Source: Paraescarpia echinospica
Taxonomy: Eukaryota; Annelida; Polychaeta; Sabellida; Siboglinidae
Assembly (NCBI GenBank): GCA_020002185.1
Contig: CM034541.1
Coordinates: forward strand, 49,441,275 to 49,505,274
Direction: 5' to 3'
DNA length: 64,000 nucleotides
Shown: piece after piece, positions 5,311 to 62,291 of the stretch
How positions within the stretch are numbered: the stretch's first letter is position 1
Layout: every line of letters begins with the position of its first letter
Program-made: the position numbers and the translations under genes
The notes under the pieces: model-generated
The model's input: the letters and a program-made list of their open reading frames with translations, nothing else
What the model was told of the DNA's origin: nothing
The model's database searches: none

Positions 5311-8203
5311 CTACATATATCCAGCCCTTCTGAGGTATGTGTCGATTTTATTTTTAAACATATTCACACTACTAGCACCCACACAATCATCAGATAATCT
5401 GTTCCATTCATTCACAGTCCTTTGTGAAAATGAGAACTTTCTCACGTCTAATCTACACTGCTCCTTTACTAATGTAACTTCATGTCCTCTAGTCTTTCTA
5501 TCTTTCTTAACTGAAAAAAACATATTTCTATCAATATTTTCATAACCATTCAATATTTTAAACACTTCTATCTGATCTCCTCTCAATCTCCTGGTCTCTA
5601 GTGTTGTTAAACCACATTCTTTTAGACGTTTTTCATAACTAAGATCCCTCAGTTTTGGTATCATTTTAGTCGCTCTCCTCTGTACTCTTTCTAGCATATC
5701 TATGTCCTTCTTGCGGTATGGCCTCCACGCTTGTATACAATATTCTAAATGAGGCCTAACTATTGTTTTGTACAGCGGTATTATTAGTTCTTTTTCTTTA
5801 TATGCTATATTTCGCCTAATCAATCCAAGGATTTGATTTCCCTTTGAAGCTGCAATTCCACACTGCTCTGAAACCTTCATGTCAGCACTAATTGTCAGCC
5901 CTAAGTCTTTTCTTTTACAGTAGTACTTAGTACAGTTCCCCCCATTGTATATTCTACATATTCGTTCCCATGTCCTGTGTGAAGGCATTTACATTTCCCA
6001 AAATTGAACAACATTTGCCACTTTTCAGACCATTTGATCAACCTGTCAAGATCATCTTGTAAATGATGTCTATCCCCATCACTTTTAATCCTTCTAAACA
6101 CTTTTGTATCATCTGCAAATTTCAACACCTTGCTAGCTATATCATCGTCCAAATCGTTTATATATATTAAGAATAATATAGGTCCCAGTACTGATCCCTG
6201 TGGAACCCCACTCAAAACTGATTTCCAGTTTGAAGCCTCCCCATCAACAACTACCCGTTGTCTTCTGTCAATCAGCCATTTTTCTATCCAGTTAATTATA
6301 CCATTTCCTATGCCGTGGGCTTTTAGTTTAAGCAGTAATCTCTGATGTGGCACTTTGTCGAAAGCTTTTTGAAAATCTAAGTAGATGATATCTACTGGTG
6401 ATCCATCATCTACCCACTTAGTGATATCTTCCAAGAAACATAACATATTTGTTAAGCATGACCTCGCTTTTAGAAACCCATGTTGAGATGGGTTTATCAA
6501 ATTATGTTTAACAAGAAAATCCACCATGTGATCTTTAATTAGTCTTTCTAATAATTTACAAATCACTGATGTTAAACTCACTGGTCTATAGTTCTCTGAC
6601 TTGTTTCTCAAACCTTTTTTAAATAACGGTATAATGTTTGCTTCTTTCCATTCTAAAGGAACCACTCCCTCTTCTAATGATAAGTTGAAAACTGTTGCAA
6701 GCGGTATGCTAATTTGTTCTACAATTTCCAATAGTTTGGGTGGAATACCATCCACTCCAGGTGATTTATTATCCTTCATAGCCCTAATTTTCTTAGCTAC
6801 CATTTCTGGGGTTACAATTAACTGTCTTAAATAGTCTGATTCTGCCCCCTTGAACTTAGCCTCTGGTGCTGGCAGTGAACTAGTGTCTTCTCTGGTAAAC
6901 ACTGAACTAAAATACTCATTTAGGTCTTCTGCCATTAAGAATCCTTCTGATATTATATTTCCAGCACTATCTTCTAGAGGACCGACCTTACCCTGAACTT
7001 TCTGTTTGCTTCGAACATACGCATACAAACTCTTGCTGTCATGTTTTATATTACAAGCTAATTTATGTTCATATCTTCTCTTTGAATTTCTAATTTCAGC
7101 TGTAGCTTGGTTTAGTGCTTCTTTATAAATGTTGTAGTCTTCGTCATTTCCAGTACGTCTATATGACTTCCACATCATTTGTTTATACTTAATTTTCTAA
7201 TGGCTTCTTTCAATAAGTATTTCTTTCTGGTCCGTTTCCCTTGTTTTTTGAAGGGAACAAATTTATCTACGATGCTCTCTATTTCATTCTTTAAGATATT
7301 CCAGCATTCTGTTGCTGTCTTATTCTTCAGTGTATTATTCCAGTCTATCTTTGCTAAATATTTCCTCATTTCCTTATATCTTCCTTTGTGGAAATTTCTC
7401 CTGAACTGCTTTTTATTATTTCTTTCTGATTTTACTTTGATGGTAAAATGTATCTGGTTGTGATCACTACTTCCCAGAGGCTCACATGATTTAACATTGT
7501 CAACTAATTCATTATGTGAGGACAAAACTAAGTCTAACACATTCTCTCCCCTGGTTGGTTCTAGCACATGTTGAGAAAGGAAACTATCTTGTACTAAAAC
7601 TAAAAACTTGTGGTCCTCACTACCCATACTCTGTAGAGATTTCCATTGTATATGCCCATGGTTAAAATCCCCCATAATAATACAGTCCCGTTTGCTTACT
7701 TCCCTTATAGCGTTTTGTATTTTTTCATTCTCTTCTATACTTATGTTTGGACTTCGATAAACTAACCCAACTGTTAACGTTGAGTTTCCTGTAACTATGT
7801 TACACCAAACAGCTTCTTCGCAATCTGCTTCTCTTTCTAATTTTATTTCATAAGCCTGGATAGATTCTTTAATATATAAAATAACTCCACCTCCCTTTCT
7901 TCCTATTCTATCTTTCCTAAACATTACATATCCTGTCAGTCCCAATTCGGCATCTGATATATCGGTGGTTGCCCATGATTCGGTTATACCTATTATGTGA
8001 GGGTTAATATCTTCTACCATAATGTTTAGTTCATTTCTTTTGTTTACTATACTCCTTGCATTTAAACAAACACATTTATACCCAGCTTCAGAACAGTTTT
8101 CCAGACTGTTCTTTGCTGAATTATTTTTGCTGCCTTTATCTATGCCTCCAGTTTCAGGCTTCTCTGCGAGTCCCCCCTGCGAATTTAGTTTAAATAGATG
8201 CAA
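5311..8203 (-). pseudogene. CR1 LINE ORF2 (endonuclease-reverse transcriptase), two frameshifts
   Basis: The polyprotein nicks target DNA and reverse-transcribes the element RNA. The APE-type endonuclease (about 7175-8203) shows LNARSIVNK, GITESW, VYRSPN, MGDFNHGHIQW and SSDHNQIHF. The reverse transcriptase (about 5901-7178) shows NYRPVSLTSV, QHGFLKARSC, YLDFQKAFD, SGVPQGSVLGP and the catalytic FADD. The C-terminal region (5311-5910) includes LYKTIVRPHLEYCIQAW and ends at a stop at 5311. Comparison with copy 2 places single-base deletions near 7193-7197 (in an A run) and near 5906 (AAAAGAC here, AAAGGAC there). No ATG precedes the endonuclease: the frame is open through ORF1's end at 8203 and starts in the -1 frame relative to ORF1. 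Confidence 0.93.
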
Positions 8204-8817
8204 CCTGTCCCACTGTCAACAGATCGCAGCAGATTCTCTGAGAATACTGCTGCCCCCTTTCCACTTAGATGGAGGCCATCTCTCATGTACATATCTTCTC
8301 TCCCAACAAAGTACCCCCATAAATCTAGGAATCCCACGCCCTCTTCCTCACACATCTGCTCAACTAGTGCGTTGATCGCCATCCTCTTACAGTTTTTGTA
8401 TCTTGCCCCCCTTCCTCTCATTACTGGCAAAATTCCTGAGAGAATAACCTGTTCCACTCTTGTCTTCTTTAGCTTCCTCACTAGATGTCTGTACTTCTGA
8501 ACTATCCCAGGTGTTCCCTCCTTGTCTGCATTGTTTGTCCCAACGTGTACTAGTATAGACCCTCCCTTGCCATGCCCCAATACCTTCTCTACCCTTTCGG
8601 TCACATGCTCTATCCTAGCCCCCGGTAGACATACAACAACGTCCTTCCCCTCGCATATAGTCTTGTCTGTTTTTCTCAGAATTGAATCGCCCATAAACAC
8701 TCTCTCTTTTCTCCTTGCCCCCTCAATCACTGCCTCGGAGTAGCTCCTCCGGTTTGCATATGTCTGGTTGTTGTCGTTTCCTCTTGTCGTCTTCTCTCCT
8801 GTCACATTCTCTTCCAT
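8185..8817 (-). pseudogene. CR1 LINE ORF1, esterase (SGNH hydrolase-like) domain, 5'-truncated
   Basis: 210 residues from the first ATG. The SGNH blocks are all present: block I as FMGDSILRK (nucleophile Ser), block III as VHVGTNNAD, and block V as RDGLHLSGKG (catalytic His). ORF1 proteins of CR1/L2 elements carry such an esterase, thought to act in lipid or RNP handling. The PHD-like finger expected at the N terminus is absent, whereas copy 2 still shows it, so this is a truncated protein although the remaining frame is open. It ends YLN-stop and overlaps ORF2 by 19 bases. Confidence 0.88.
8188..8194 (-). promoter_or_regulatory. Candidate -1 ribosomal frameshift site (UUUAAAC) at ORF1/ORF2 junction
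   Basis: In ORF1 frame the last codons read TAT TTA AAC TAA, so T-TTA-AAC is an in-frame X-XXY-YYZ heptamer immediately before the stop. ORF2 lies in exactly the -1 frame and has no upstream ATG. Copy 2 has T-TTA-AAT-TAG in the same place. UUUAAAC is among the most efficient known slippery sequences. A downstream stem at 5 to 9 bases is not obvious; GCCT..AGGC can pair about 30 bases on. Confidence 0.6.
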
Positions 8818-8870
8818 TCCCTTCTTTCCTGTCGAGGAATATTCCTGTCTTATAATGTCGAGGATCGAGG

Positions 8871-9572
8871 CTATTTTTGGCGGAGATAGATCGTAGAAAT
8901 TGGTGGTGCAGAAAAGTTGAAAACAAGTGGAATTACTTATTCAAAAGTATTATTATTGTATTAATATCATTCATAAAGTAGCAGTAAACATATATTGAGT
9001 ATAAGTTTTGCTTAAAGTTAGTTAGATAAAGTATTTTAGAACACTTTAGTCTAGTGAGTGATAATAGGGTAAGTTAGCCTACGATAAGTTTGTAAACAAG
9101 ATTTAACAAACCTCATTATGTGGTAAATATATAGGTGATAAAGTCGAAAACATAAAACTACTCACATAAGATAATATTTGTATAAAAAAGACATTTTGAT
9201 TAGGTAGCTTTGTTGTTAAAATTAAGCATTTGCGATAACCGGGCGAACTAAGTTTAGTAGCTAGTGTCCCACGTATTCGCTAGGGCGCGATATAACCTAA
9301 ATAAATAAGACAATCTAGCGTAAAGTAATTGACTGTATTTAAATTAGGTCACTACCAGTAACGTTAGTATTTCTGATAGGATAGACAGTCAGCTGTGACT
9401 ATAACCAAAAACTGTAACCGAAATACACAAGGCAATATTACGTAAAGTGCAACATTTGTGCATAGTAAATAGTCTTCTTTTAAAGACTACATAGACAGCA
9501 AATAGTGTAAACACAGTTGACTAAACTATTTTAAATAGCTAATTATATTATTATTATTAAATAAATTCTGGT
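8871..9572 (+). other. AT-rich region between the two LINEs, probable 5' UTR of copy 2
   Basis: No open frame. It precedes the first ATG of copy 2's ORF1 (9573) and follows the 5' break of copy 1. A 5' UTR with internal promoter of several hundred bases would be normal for a CR1 element, but with no second full-length copy here I cannot place its start. Confidence 0.35.
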
Positions 9573-10647
9573 ATGGCGCCTTGCAAGTAGCAAGTCAAGG
9601 CAAAGAGACATTTGGTGTGCGACGACTGCCACAGTTTGGTGTTTTGCCCTATCCGGCTGTGGGAAGTCATGGGCAGAGACCAAGGAAGAGGGATTCACCT
9701 TTCAGTGCGTGGGGTGTTGGAAGGTGGAATGTCAGGAGAAGGGGGTAGCTAGGTTGGTTGATATTGTGAAGGGGTTGGCGATGAGAATCAGCAAGGTGAG
9801 AGAGGAAAGGGAGAGTTGGGAATACTGTAAGACTGAAGGAGCAAAATAGTGGCAAGAAGACCGAGAAAAGGGGTCTGAGAGAAGGGAAGGTGATCGGAGG
9901 GGAAGAAATTGGAGGATCGACGACAGGAAATGTGACTGGCGTGAAGGTGACATGGGAGAAAATGACCGTAGCGAAAAAGGTAGGAGGGAAAAGGGGATGG
10001 GAGAGGAAAAAAGGAAATGCAATGGGAGGAAAGATGACGGAAAGAAAGGAAGTGAGAGTAAATGTGACTGAAGATGCAAACCGGAGAAGGAGTTACTCTG
10101 AGGCAGCGATTGAGTGGGCATTGAGAAAAGAGAGGGTGTTTGTGGACGACTCTATTCTGAGAAAGACAGATAAGACACTAAGCGACGGAGAGGACGTCGT
10201 TGTTTGTTTGCCGGGGGCTAGGATAGAATATGTGACTGAAAGGGTAGAAAAGGTATTGGGGCATGGCAAGGGAGGGTCTATAGTAGTACATGTAGGGACA
10301 AATAATGCTGACGGGGGGGAACAACTGGGATAGTACAGAAGTACAGACAGTTAGTGAGGAAGTTAAAGAAGACAAGGGTTGAACAGATTATTCTCTCAGG
10401 CAGTTTGCCTGTAATGGGAGGAATGGGGCCAACATAATTTATAGAAACTGCATGAGGATGGCGATCAACGCACTAGTTGAGCAGATTTGTAAAGAAAAGG
10501 GGGTGGGGGATTCGTAGATCTACGGGATACTTTGTTGGGAGGGAAGATATGTACATGAGAGATGGCCTCCATCTAAGTGGACAGGGGGCAGCAGTTTTAA
10601 CACTGCAATCTGTTGACAGTGGGACAGGCTGCATCTATTTAAATTAG
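9573..10647 (+). pseudogene. CR1 LINE ORF1 (finger plus esterase), degenerate
   Basis: The ATG at 9573 opens MAPCK, followed by an in-frame TAG. Beyond it RHLVCDDCHSLVF and, in a shifted frame, GFTFQCVGCWKVE supply the Cys/His pairs of the PHD-like finger. The esterase follows at 9890-10620: block III VHVGTNNAD is kept, but block I reads VDDSILRK, where copy 1 has GDS, so the glycine before the nucleophile region is lost. RDGLHLSGQG survives near 10557. The frame closes at TAG 10645-10647 after a TTTAAAT heptamer. Confidence 0.85.
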
Positions 10648-12893
10648 ATTCGCAGGGGGATTCACAGAGAAGCCTGAAACTGGAGGCATAGATAAAGACA
10701 GCATTAATAAATCAGCAAAGAACAGCCTGGAAAACTGTTCTGAATCAGGATATAAATGCGTTTGTTTAAATGCAAAGACCATAGTAAACAAAACAAATGA
10801 ACTAAACATAATGGTAGAAGATATTGACCCTCACATAATAGGTATAACCTAATCATGGGCCACCACTGATATATCAGATGCCGAATTGGGACTAACAGGC
10901 CATGCAATGTCAAGGAAAGATAGAATAGGAAGAAGGGGAGGTAGAGTTATTTTATATGTTATAGAATCTATCCAGGCTTATGAAATAAAATTAGAAAGAG
11001 AAGCAGATTGCGAAGAAGCTGTTTGGTGTAACATAGTTACATGAAACTCAACGTTAACGTTTGGATTAGTTTATCGAAGTCCAAACATAAGTGTAGAATA
11101 GAATGAAAAAGTACAAAACGCTATAAGGGAAGTTAGCAAACGGGACTGTATTATTATGGGAGATTTTAACCATGGTCATATACAATGGAAATCTCTGCTG
11201 AGTACAGGGAGTGAAGACCACAAGTTTTTAGTTTTAGTACAAGACAGTTTCCTTTCTCAACATCACAGAATGAGTTAGTTGACAATGTCAAATTATGTGA
11301 GCCACTGGGAAGTAGTGATCAAAACCAGATACATTTTTCCATCAAAGTAAAATCAGAAAGAAATAATAAAAAGCAGTTCAGGAGACATTTCACAAAGGAA
11401 GATATAAGGAAATGAGGAAATATTTATCAAAGATAGACTGGAACAACACACTAAATAATAAGTCAGCAACAGAATGCTGGAATACCTTAAAGAGTGAAAT
11501 AGAGTGCATCGTCGATAAATGTGTTCCCTTGACAAAACAAGGGGAAGAGTCCAGAAAGTTAATTAAGTACATTAAGTACAAACAAACGATGTGGAAATCA
11601 TATAGACGTAGTGGAAGTGACGAAGACTACAACATTACATTTTATAAAGAAGCACTAAACCAAGCTACAACTGTAATTAGAAATTCGAAGAGAAGCTACG
11701 AACAAAAATTAGCTTGTAAAACAAGACAGCAAGAGTTGTTATGCATTATGTTCGGAGCAAACAGAAAGTTCAGGATAACGTCGGTCTTCTAGAAGATAGT
11801 GCTGGAATATTAGAGGGATTCTTAATGGCAGAAGACCTGAATGAGTATTTTAGTTCAGTGTTTACCAGGGAAGATATTAGTTCACTGCCAGTACCAGAGG
11901 CTACGTTCAAGGGGGCAGAATCAGACTATTTAGGACAGTTAATTGTACCCCCGAAAATGGTAGCTAAGAATATTAGGAAGGATATGATGAAGGATGATAA
12001 ATCACCTGGTGTGGATGGGATTCAGCCCAAATTACTACTGGAAATTGTAGAACAAATTAGCATACCACTTGCAACAGTTTTCAACTTGTCATTAGAATAG
12101 GGGATGGTTTCTTTAGAATGGAAAGAAGCAAACATTATACCATTATTTTAAAAAGGTTCCAGAAACATGTCAGAGAACTACAGACCATTGAGTTTAATGT
12201 CAGTTATTTGCAAATTATTAGAAAGACTAATTAAAGATCACATGGTGGATTTTCTTGTTAAACATAACTTGTTAAACCCATCTTAACATGGGTTTCTAAA
12301 AGCGAGGTCATGCTTAACAAATATGTTATGTTTTTGGAGGATATCACTAAGTGGGTAGACAAGGGATCACCAGTAGATATCATCTACTTAGATTTTCAGA
12401 AAGCTTTCGACAAAGTGCCACATCAAGGAATACTGCTTTAAAAAAGGGCCATGGCATAGGGTTTAATTAACTGGATAGAAAAATGGCTAATTGACAGAAG
12501 ACAACGGGTAGTAGTTGATGGGGAGGATTCAAAATGGAATTCAGTTTTGAGTGGGGTATCACAGGCAACAGTACTGGGACCTATATTATTCTTAATATAT
12601 ATCAACGATTTGGACGATGATATAACAAGCAAGGTGTTGAAATTTGCGGATAATACAACATTGTTTAGAAGGGTTAAACGTGATGAAGATAGACAGGATT
12701 TAAAAGATGATCTTGACAGGTTGATCAAATGGTCTAAAAAAGTGGCAAATGTTGTTAAATTTTGGGAAATGTAAATGCCTCCACACAGGACATAAAAACG
12801 AAGATGTACAATATACATTGGGTGGTTCTGTACTTAAGTACTACTGTAAAAAAAAAGGACTTAGGGTTAACCATTAATGTTGATGTAAAGCTT
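10630..12893 (+). pseudogene. CR1 LINE ORF2, degenerate and lacking the C terminus
   Basis: Endonuclease pieces (MGDFNHGHIQW near 11157) and reverse transcriptase pieces (YLDFQKAFDKVPH near 12386; SGVSQATVLGP near 12549; KFADNTTLF near 12641) can be matched one for one to copy 1 through several frameshifts and stops. The catalytic FADD has become FADN and the PQG block has become SQA, so it is inactive. Its value is as an independent comparison for the junction and for the two deletions in copy 1. Confidence 0.88.
10638..10644 (+). promoter_or_regulatory. Candidate -1 frameshift site (UUUAAAU), copy 2
   Basis: The ORF1 frame reads TAT TTA AAT TAG. The heptamer T-TTA-AAT sits in frame next to the stop, as in copy 1. 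The only change in the heptamer is the synonymous C to T at its last base, which keeps the X-XXY-YYZ form. ORF2 again continues in the -1 frame. This copy is a pseudogene, so the site shows conservation and not present use. Confidence 0.5.
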
Positions 12894-51106: not shown

Positions 51107-51252
51107 GCACCCGTCAAGGTATGAACGAAAAGCGGCTTCTGTACGACCTGTTTGTGAAACGTCATCACGACAAACTCGAGCGGCCCATTGCTGACGAGTC
51201 GAAGGCACTAACTGTGAAGTTTGGACTGGTTCTGCAGCAAATTATCGACGTG
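51107..51252 (+). CDS. Nicotinic acetylcholine receptor subunit, exon 2
   Basis: 146 bases, acceptor TTTGTAG|GC, donor GTG|GTAATG, entering in phase 1 and leaving in phase 0. It encodes about residues 26-73: GMNEKRLLYDLFVKRHH, LERPIADESKALTVKFGL and VLQQIIDV. This is the N-terminal helix and first beta strands of the extracellular domain. The RLL..LF....Y..LERP and VKFGL.L.QIIDV patterns are diagnostic of nAChR subunits, and 146 bases is the usual length of this exon. It joins exactly to DEKNQ in either version of exon 3. Confidence 0.96.
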
Positions 51253-52856: not shown

Positions 52857-53256
52857 ATATAACTAGTTGAAACATATCGTTGTATTGGCTGTTAGTTTGA
52901 CGTTAACATATCGTTGTATTGGCTGTTAGTTTGACGTTAACATATCGTTGTATTGGCAGTTAGTTTGACGTTAACGGTAAATATAACTAGTTGAAACATA
53001 TCGTTGTATTGGCTGTTAGTTTGACGTTAACGGTAAATATAACTAGTTGAAACATATCGTTGTATTGGCTGTTAGTTTGACGTTAACGGTAAATATAACT
53101 AGTTGAAACATATCGTTGTATTGGCTGTTAGTTTGACGTTAACATATCGTTGTATTGGCTGTTAGTTTGACGTTAACATATCGTTGTATTGGCTGTTAGT
53201 CTGACGTTAACATATCGTTGTATTGGCTGTTAGTTTGACGTTAACGGTAAATATAG
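52857..53256. repeat. Nested minisatellite: 34-base unit and 22-base linker
   Basis: A 34-base unit (AACATATCGTTGTATTGGCT then GTTAGTTTGACGTT) starts at 52871, 52905, 52939, 52995, 53051, 53107, 53141, 53175 and 53209. A 22-base linker (AACGGTAAATATAACTAGTT GA) follows the 3rd, 4th and 5th units, and a partial linker follows the last. The block order is therefore 3-1-1-4. Units are almost identical (two single-base variants), so the expansion is recent. Each junction makes GTTAAC and TGACGTTAAC. Confidence 0.95.
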
Positions 53257-54099: not shown

Positions 54100-55165
54100 T
54101 GCACGTGTGCGTGAATGCGAACGTGTGTTTGAATGAGTGATTGATTAACTGATTGATTGAATACGTGAGTGAGGGCGTGAATGAGGGAGTGGGTGACTGA
54201 GTGAATAAATGATGGAATGAATGATCTCTCGAGCGATTGTGTGGGTGATTGATTGACTAGGTGAGTGAGTGAGAGAGAGTGAGTGAGTGAGTGAATGTGT
54301 TTGAATGGGTGAATGAATGAGTGAGTAAGTGGATGAGTGAATGAGTGAGTGAGTGAGTGAGTGAGTGAGTGAATGAGTGAGTGGGTGAGTGGGTGAGTGA
54401 GTGAGTGAGTGAGTGAAAGAGTGAGTGAGTGAGTGAGTGAGTGAGTGAGTGAGTGAGTGAGTGAGTGAGTGAGTGAGTGAGTGAGTGAGTGAATGATGAG
54501 TGGTTATGAAATAAATAAATAAATAAAAACATCATGATGAGTGGGTGAGTGATGATCATCATGGTGATCGGTGAGTGATAAATGGTGAATCATGATGATG
54601 ATGTGATCAGTCGTGATGAGTGAGTGATGATGATGATCAGTGATGATGATGATGATGATGATGATGATCATGATGATGATGGTGTGAGTGAGTGAGTGGA
54701 GTGAAGTGAGTCATGATGTGATCATGAATGTTCAGCATGTCTGAAGTATATATCATGATGAGTGATGATGAGTGAGTGAATCATGATCGTAATGATTAAT
54801 GAGATAAAATCAGTCTCAGTGAGTATCAGTCATGATGATGATGATCATCATGATGATGATATCAGATGAGTGATCATGAGTGAGGTGATGAGTTCAGTGG
54901 TGATATGGTGATAGATGAGATCATGAATGAATGAGTGATGATATGAGATCAGAGAGTGATCAATCATGATGAGATGAGTGATCATATGATCATCATATTG
55001 AGTGAGTGAGTGAGTGAGTGAGTGAGTGAGTGAGTGAGTGAGTGAGTGAGTGAGTGAGTGAGTGAGTGAGTGAGTGAGTGAGTGAGTGAGTGAGTGAGTG
55101 AGTGAGTGAGTGAGTGAGTGAGTGAGTGAGTGAGTGAGTGAGTGGATGTGTGGATGGGTGGATAA
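54100..55165. repeat. GAGT/GAAT and GATG simple-repeat block next to the alternative exons
   Basis: GTGA/ATGA tetranucleotides at 54130-54520, mixed TGATGA and ATCATGATG repeats at 54530-54995, then a pure (AGTG)n run of about 36 units at 55001-55143. On the transcribed strand every unit of the pure run contains GTGAGT, the 5' splice-site consensus. It ends about 177 bases before exon 3a. Threonine-histidine-serine frames on the minus strand are artefacts. Confidence 0.95.
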
Positions 55166-55320
55166 GTGAATGAATGAGATAAATGGTAATGTAGCTAATT
55201 AGCAACATAAATGCATAATATGTTAGTATTATAAACTAATTATTTCAACATTTGTGTTACTACAAACATGTTTTCATTACCCTGTTTTCAACTAACCTAC
55301 CTCTCGTTTATTTCATCCAG

Positions 55321-55365
55321 GACGAAAAGAACCAAATACTAGCTACAAATATCTGGTTGAATATG
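55321..55365 (+). CDS. Nicotinic acetylcholine receptor subunit, exon 3a (loop D, version a)
   Basis: 45 bases, phase 0 to 0, between TTTCATCCAG and GTAAGT. It encodes residues 74-88, DEKNQILATNIWLNM. The tryptophan (residue 85) is the loop D tryptophan on the complementary face of the agonist site (Trp55 of the alpha-7 numbering). A 45-base exon with exactly this content is conserved in animal nAChR genes. A second version lies 88 bases downstream. Versions a and b differ at three residues, one immediately before the tryptophan. Confidence 0.95.
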
Positions 55366-55453
55366 GTAAGTGAGACGACAATGCTAGTGAACTTCCACTC
55401 TCGTCATGTGCTATCATCTGTTTAACCTTCCTCTTTTCGTTCTTGCCAACAGG

Positions 55454-55498
55454 ACGAAAAGAACCAAATCATAAACACAAATATGTGGCTAAATATGG
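55454..55498 (+). CDS. Nicotinic acetylcholine receptor subunit, exon 3b (loop D, version b)
   Basis: 45 bases, phase 0 to 0, between TTCTTGCCAACAG and GTAAGT. It encodes DEKNQIINTNMWLNM. It matches exon 3a at 37 of 45 bases and 12 of 15 residues; the changes are L to I, A to N and I to M. Upstream polypyrimidine tracts are also alike (AACCTACCTCTCGTTT in a, AACCTTCCTCTTTTCGTT in b), showing a tandem duplication that included the acceptor. Using both exons would keep frame but insert 15 extra residues into the beta-sheet core, so one-or-the-other use is expected. In insects Dalpha6-type genes also have alternative exons at this position (3a/3b, from memory). Confidence 0.92.
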
Positions 55499-58877: not shown

Positions 58878-58987
58878 GAATGGAACAATTACAACTTGGC
58901 CTGGAACAAGTCTGAATATGGCAACATCTCGAGTATACGTGTTCCTCCAAACAAAATCTGGCGGCCGGATATCTTGATGTACAACAG
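58878..58987 (+). CDS. Nicotinic acetylcholine receptor subunit, exon 4 (loop A)
   Basis: 110 bases, acceptor GTTCCCAG|GA, donor ACAG|GTATGT, phase 0 to 2. It encodes residues 89-124 and part of 125: EWNNYNLAWNKSEYGNISS, IRVPPNKIWRPDILMYN. The W.W pattern after loop D and WRPDILMYN (loop A, with the conserved Tyr at residue 123) are typical. Two N-glycosylation sequons are present (N98-K-S and N104-I-S). 110 bases is the standard length for this exon in alpha-7-like genes. It joins in frame to either version of exon 3. Confidence 0.96.
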
Positions 58988-61373: not shown

Positions 61374-61466
61374 CGCTGATGAAGATTTTGACAGTACGTT
61401 CCCAACAAACGTGGTGGTGTCATCAAATGGCGACTGCCTGTGGGTTCCACCCGGACTCTTCTTCAG
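61374..61466 (+). CDS. Nicotinic acetylcholine receptor subunit, exon 5 (loop E)
   Basis: 93 bases, acceptor TTGCAG|CG, donor TTCAG|GTGACA, phase 2 to 2. After the split Ser (125) it encodes [17 protein letters not shown] and [13 protein letters not shown] (residues 126-155). The SADE.FD.TF.TNV pattern follows loop A in nAChRs, and GDCLWVPPG is loop E. A cysteine in this loop is common in alpha-7-like subunits. The split last codon (AG|C) is completed by exon 6. Confidence 0.96.
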
Positions 61467-62130: not shown

Positions 62131-62291
62131 CACGTGTAAGATCGATATCACGTGGTTTCCGTTCGACGATCAACATTGTAAGATGAAGTTCGGTTCGTGG
62201 ACGTATGATGGCTCTGCCATCGACCTTCTGTTAAAGATGGAAGGTGGAGACACATCCAACTTCATCGCCAACGGCGAGTGGGACTTGATAG
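62131..62291 (+). CDS. Nicotinic acetylcholine receptor subunit, exon 6 (Cys-loop, loop B)
   Basis: 161 bases, acceptor TAATTTCAG|CA, donor ATAG|GTCAGT, phase 2 to 1. It encodes residues 157-209. [15 protein letters not shown] is the Cys-loop, with exactly 13 residues between Cys158 and Cys172 and the FPFD motif. KFGSWTYDG is loop B, with the principal-face tryptophan (179). NGEWDLI leads toward loop C. The next exon, expected to hold loop C and the vicinal cysteines that define alpha subunits, is beyond the window. The open frame of the whole transcript so far is 628 bases. Confidence 0.97.

Follow-up and report, generated by a model that had tools for sequence, protein, structure and literature searches.

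Does a nicotinic receptor gene that carries its loop D exon twice use the two copies in place of one another, and if so, how is the choice made and how old is the arrangement? The question is raised by a locus in the siboglinid annelid Paraescarpia echinospica (assembly GCA_020002185.1, contig CM034541.1), analysed here as a stretch of 64,000 nucleotides that we call the window, with positions counted from its first base. Our best explanation, to which we give a probability of about 0.72, is that the loop D exon was duplicated in tandem in an apparent orthologue of alpha7/alpha6, that transcripts mostly carry one copy, and that the choice between copies is set by an RNA hairpin.

A gene that looks like insect alpha6 and vertebrate alpha7

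The preliminary description of this DNA placed the two exons in a nicotinic receptor gene and assigned them to loop D, and both assignments are upheld by Pfam domains and by alignment to alpha7. The gene lies on the forward strand and runs from 51107 to about 9.4 kb beyond the end of the window (Table 1). Its internal exons are bounded by AG and GT, and its product matches the ligand-binding domain (LBD; PF02931, 212 bits) and the transmembrane domain (PF02932, 142.1 bits). Exon lengths of 45, 110, 87 and 110 bases are, we take it, those of vertebrate alpha7. In the readable part of the region we did not find an exon for loop C and TM1, where the vicinal cysteines of an alpha subunit would lie. 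When 51000-76000 was searched, stretches of N left out, a single TM2 exon was seen and the next-best stretch had nine residues alike; most insects have exon 8 variants, a point on which the readable part of this gene may differ. Rfam returned no matches within the window at curated thresholds.

Table 1. Exons of the receptor gene and predicted RNA elements around the loop D exons
Feature	Position	Strand	Remarks
Exon 2, 146 bp	51107-51252	+	Terminates in ...KFGLVLQQIIDV, in phase 0, with donor GTAATG; placed by tblastn similarity to alpha7 and AG/GT bounds
Exon 3a, loop D, 45 bp	55321-55365	+	Encodes DEKNQILATNIWLNM
Intron between 3a and 3b, 87 nt	55366-55452	+	
Exon 3b, loop D, 45 bp	55453-55497	+	Encodes DEKNQIINTNMWLNM
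Hairpin arm 1, 3b polypyrimidine tract	55432-55443	+	Prediction
Hairpin arm 2, acceptor AG and first 10 bases of 3b	55451-55462	+	Prediction
Exact repeat of the arm 2 12-mer at the 3a acceptor	55319-55330	+	Possible second, weaker partner of arm 1; prediction
Exon 4, 110 bp	58878-58987	+	
Exon 5, 93 bp	61374-61466	+	
Exon 6, 161 bp, Cys-loop region	62131-62291	+	
TM2 exon, 87 bp	About 6.4 kb beyond window end	+	
TM3 exon, 110 bp	Beyond window end	+	
Last exon, 456 bp	Beyond window end	+	Stop codon at end

Among solved chains, those of alpha7 rank first against either half of the protein (E = 4e-68 for the ligand-binding half and 3e-46 for the other), presumably human. Over the LBD, identity is 101/174 aligned residues (58.0%) to the top alpha7 chain and 122/178 (68.5%) to a provisional Drosophila alpha6 sequence; over the transmembrane half it is 96/214 (44.9%) to a provisional chick alpha7 sequence and 123/213 (57.7%) to the provisional alpha6. 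The M3-M4 loop reads RSSRSLLANVLDLDDDF in the window protein and RSSKSLLANVLDIDDDF in the provisional alpha6. As a partial check of the latter, its span from DVDEKNQ to WTYDGNQ is 342 bp long, and the insect alpha6 amplicon between these motifs is reported as 341 bp (PMC3644170).

Elsewhere in the genome, LBD matches share 29-55% identity with it (of 92 matches, three are the window gene's own exons). Among 38 loci, some of them overlapping and three of them the window gene itself, this gene has the highest identity to alpha7 (59% over 54) and to the provisional Dalpha6 (76% over 55); one paralogue, L032, beats it for alpha7 in bits (82.0 vs 73.9) over a longer piece. Because alpha7 ranks first for both halves, the provisional alpha6 is closer still and the paralogues remain within the range given, the window gene appears to be orthologous to both insect alpha6 and vertebrate alpha7. 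The parallel with insect Dalpha6 that had been drawn earlier is therefore stronger than was claimed, since the likeness appears to extend to the gene as a whole and not just to one exon.

Two intact copies of the loop D exon

Reading the window sequence and splitting it into exons confirmed two tandem 45-base exons of phase 0-0, each with its own AG acceptor and GTAAGT donor, as had been described; the spacing of 88 and the end at 55498 given at that time were each off by one base, the gap being 87 and 3b ending at 55497. Alignment likewise bore out the identity of 37/45 bases (8/45 differ) and the three residue changes, at positions 7 (L/I), 8 (A/N) and 11 (I/M); most differences between the two intact copies are silent or conservative. 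Chance likeness was rejected: the local alignment of 3a with 3b scores 29, and the best of 500 shuffles scores 13.5. Both donors agree with the consensus at 8/9 positions and are, with that of exon 4, the best in the gene, and both polypyrimidine tracts are 82% pyrimidine. A third loop D copy was sought on both strands between exons 2 and 4 and none was found, the best other stretch matching at no more than 5/15 residues.

The Pfam ligand-binding score is almost the same when either copy is used alone (212 bits with 3a, 212.3 with 3b). With both copies it is 210.3 bits and the match is broken into two stretches, and with neither it drops to 167.7 bits and the match is broken too.

The intron upstream of 3a also holds a tandem array of 34- and 56-base units matching at 98-99% (52871-53245) and a degenerate GTGA tetranucleotide repeat of about 1 kb (54165-55144), which stops about 180 bases upstream of 3a and could influence splicing or vary between individuals. 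Elsewhere in the window, open reading frames like those of a non-LTR retroelement occupy 5311-8940 on the minus strand, with reverse transcriptase (PF00078, 5901-7196) and endonuclease (PF14529 and PF03372, 7175-8215) matches, and visual inspection showed a broken copy of similar kind on the plus strand, at roughly 9800-12100.

The genome contains at least 150 scored LBD matches, counted by exon, compared with 10-29 receptor genes in the ecdysozoans and vertebrates surveyed, and in its many receptor genes it resembles the nicotinic receptor expansions described for lophotrochozoan genomes (both PMC6896357). Clusters of many such matches lie at 75.3-75.8 Mb (C1) and 58.6-59.4 Mb (C2), in the latter often within open frames of about 200 residues. 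The exact exon-start motif DEKNQ occurs at 16 places genome-wide (a reversed control pattern occurs at 2), and the window pair, which accounts for two of them, is the only close pair. With about 1.5 kb taken on each side, 13 of the 14 other places show a single 45-base AG/GT exon that resembles loop D at 5/15 residues or more, and none shows two; the remaining place, L029, shows zero. For copies with other starts, uniqueness of the pair extends to these 1.5-kb flanks of motif places. The variant DERNQ also occurs at 16 places and shows no close same-strand pair among them; five adjoin receptor exons from the list of LBD matches, and most may be chance occurrences, since the reversed control pattern is likewise found 16 times.

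A predicted hairpin at the 3b acceptor

In folding predictions, the polypyrimidine tract of 3b pairs with the acceptor AG and the first bases of the exon to form a perfect 12-bp hairpin with a loop of 7 and one G-U pair, enclosing the AG, whose probability of being unpaired is at most 0.02 in the model. We folded 22 acceptors alike (3a, 3b, seven others of the same gene and 13 paralogue exons), and 3b, at -13.7 kcal/mol, has the lowest z of all (-3.44). Five of the 22 are more stable in raw energy (-13.9 to -16.4), so the hairpin is notable for its departure from composition and not for its energy. That energy was reached in 5/3000 shuffles of the tract and in 4/3000 shuffles of all 40 intron bases. 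Pairing of arm 1 with the identical 12-mer at the 3a acceptor is 4.7 kcal/mol less stable than the hairpin. Among 32 synonymous spellings of DEKNQ, six give a stabler hairpin than the actual one, a result that lends no support to the idea that the exon was selected for this pairing.

The hairpin was spotted only after folding. It is one of two on the plus strand with arms of at least five different dinucleotides, a cut chosen after a cut of seven had dropped it; with no complexity filter the plus strand yields 1645 stem rows of at least 12 bp, nearly all of them simple repeats among the matches listed.

The fold of the whole segment from 3a to 3b, at -40.6, was reached by 0/1000 shuffles, whether whole or segment-wise. 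It was reached in 4/1000 when the exon codons were shuffled, in 21/1000 when the intron alone was shuffled and the exons kept, and in 10/500 when arm 1 alone was shuffled (mean -34.8). Given that shuffles still reach the full energy, we make no claim for the rest of this fold as a signal and limit ourselves to the hairpin, which is a plausible new control element for 3b in the folding model.

How the choice might be made

Two familiar routes to mutual exclusion were ruled out. Frame shift followed by decay would not operate, since both copies are 45 bases long, in phase 0 and open, and double inclusion (90 bases) and double skipping (0 bases) are both in frame. Nor is there a mismatch of U12 and U2 splice sites, as both donors are GTAAGT and both acceptors AG. 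A third route is known from exons 4a and 4b of OGDH, likewise separated by a short intron, where exclusion depends on a distant branch point within that intron and alpha-tropomyosin is the cited precedent (PMC7969005). The 87-nt intron has one match to the branch-point consensus, TTAAC, with its A at +60. This candidate site has an ordinary spacing of 27 nt to the 3b acceptor, unlike OGDH, and its distance to the 3a donor is about 59 nt, against 25-41 nt from donor to branch point in human OGDH (PMC7969005). With a steric limit of about 50 nt between branch point and donor (PMC7969005), which the candidate narrowly exceeds, sterics alone need not bar the joining of 3a to 3b.

Alternative use of 3a and 3b is very likely in light of their sequences, and one gene probably gives rise to two versions of the receptor. 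We infer that most transcripts would carry one copy. Exon 2 would join 3a by default, with the tract and AG of 3b shut in the 12-bp hairpin, and a factor that opened the hairpin would allow exon 2 to join 3b. Joining of 3a to 3b would be disfavoured by the short intron, in which the candidate branch point and the 3a donor are both paired in the folded model. The two products would differ by three residues in one strand of the complementary face and would thereby tune how the receptor assembles or responds to agonist, probably by an indirect route.

Two other accounts of how the copies are used deserve consideration. Both exons may often be joined, perhaps at particular stages, in which case loop D would gain an insert of 15 residues and the arrangement would not be strictly either-or. 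Double inclusion keeps the frame, the two donors are equally good, the Pfam score drops only slightly from that of 3a alone, and in Bombyx alpha6 the joined form is reported to become more common as the larva turns into pupa and adult (PMC1919356, PMC2045683). We nevertheless think frequent joining unlikely: the insert breaks the domain match in two, the intron is short, the 3b acceptor and the 3a donor are shut in the fold model, and 0/30 cDNAs had joined copies in one insect study, even though that study cites a previous cDNA carrying exon 3 in duplicate (PMC1919356). It is quite improbable that one copy is a relic seldom spliced. The copy in question would probably be 3b, which strays further than 3a from the loop D sequence of alpha7 and has its acceptor inside the predicted hairpin, yet 3b retains an open frame, a GTAAGT donor, a good tract and a branch-site match, and dN/dS between the copies is about 0.1 (over 15 codons) though their flanks are already unalike. 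We retain regulated use of one copy at a time as our preferred reading.

Age and origin of the pair

Between 3a and 3b, dN is 0.113 and dS 1.076, as estimated from 15 codons only. Flanking bases agree at 24/87 positions downstream of the exons and 23/87 upstream; in gapped alignment the upstream score was reached by 9/500 shuffles and the downstream score by 100/500, and such upstream likeness might be what two pyrimidine tracts could give. With synonymous divergence near 1.1, unalike introns and nonsynonymous divergence near 0.11, the copies seem both old and constrained.

Where the residue is the same and the codon degenerate, 8/10 codons are identical, an outcome whose probability under synonymous saturation is 0.015 if codons are used evenly and rises to 0.08 under moderate bias. 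All five third positions of the DEKNQ codons agree between 3a and 3b, while among seven genes (the window gene included; those of the C1 cluster, L029 and L030 left out) mean agreement is 2.5/5 and all five agree in 1/21 pairs. This likeness points to a duplication after the split from insects, to conversion or a need at the RNA level, or to luck.

These measurements bear on where 3b came from. The pair is known from one assembly only, and a haplotype or a duplicated piece could in principle have produced the second copy; we reject such an artefact as exceedingly improbable, since a duplicated piece would be near-identical, introns too, and here 8/45 bases differ and the flanks are unalike on both sides. 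A more serious alternative, compatible with our preferred reading, is that the pair is homologous to exons 3a and 3b of insect alpha6 and is older than the divergence of this lineage from insects. The same exon of what seems the same gene is involved, the insect duplication has been dated to at least 300 My (PMC1919356), and clusters of alternative myosin exons shared by molluscs, annelids and arthropods have been traced to the ancestral protostome (PMC3912159), so that great age would not be absurd. The identical codons are unlikely under saturation, however, unless conversion or RNA-level constraint explains them; Apis is reported to have no second exon 3 (PMC1919356), and 15 residues are too few to resolve a tree. 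An ancestry shared with the insect pair is possible, although we lean against it. We regard as unlikely the more elaborate proposal that the loop D switch predates the insect split, that arm 1 here can pair with either 12-base acceptor, and that the DEKN codons stay the same in both copies because they double as the regulatory element.

Expected effect on the binding site

The preliminary description held that the pair would give two receptor forms with different complementary faces. All three changes do fall there, but the claim is weakened by what stays the same. In the alignment to alpha7, the loop D tryptophan is residue 12 and the glutamine of WLQM in alpha7 corresponds to residue 14; in both copies these residues are Trp and Asn. 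In work of Shimomura from 2002, a loop D glutamine of alpha7 reportedly affects agonist profiles, and we take that glutamine to be the counterpart of residue 14. With the tryptophan and residue 14 unchanged between the forms, any pharmacological change is probably indirect. From the alternation of residues along a strand, residue 8 (A/N) is expected on the same side as the tryptophan, and residues 7 and 11 opposite. On sequence grounds we expect effects on gating or assembly to be modest and partly indirect.

Comparison with known systems

The closest parallel is insect alpha6 (Dalpha6, Tcas alpha6 and Bm alpha6), an orthologous-looking gene in which the same in-frame exon is tandemly repeated; the pair here likewise consists of two 45-bp loop D exons of equal phase between exons 2 and 4. 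In insects these exons behave as alternatives in RT-PCR (PMC1919356, PMC2064938), most species have two versions of exon 3 (PMC1919356), and Bombyx yields forms with both exons (PMC1919356) and with neither (PMC2045683). Skipping of both also occurs in Tuta, where the 45-bp exons lie 899 bp apart (PMC5111602), unlike the short intron here. Insect exon 3 carries loop D, and its functional effect was termed elusive in 2019 (PMC6393475). The acceptor hairpin predicted here is not mentioned for insect alpha6 in the published passages dealing with it. Exon 3 variants of insect RDL and GluCl offer a further likeness, since these Cys-loop receptors also have alternative exons in the neighbourhood of loop D (PMC2064938), although they are chloride channels encoded by other genes.

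Among the matches listed in a literature search that was thin on subscription papers, we found no loop D exon pair outside insects. In the main text of a survey of lophotrochozoan nicotinic receptors, neither "alternative splic" nor "isoform" nor "loop D" appears (PMC6896357). The same arrangement in a seemingly matching gene of so distant an animal provides an independent test of the age, use and control of the loop D switch, and a common origin of the insect pair and the two exons described here has become a testable question.
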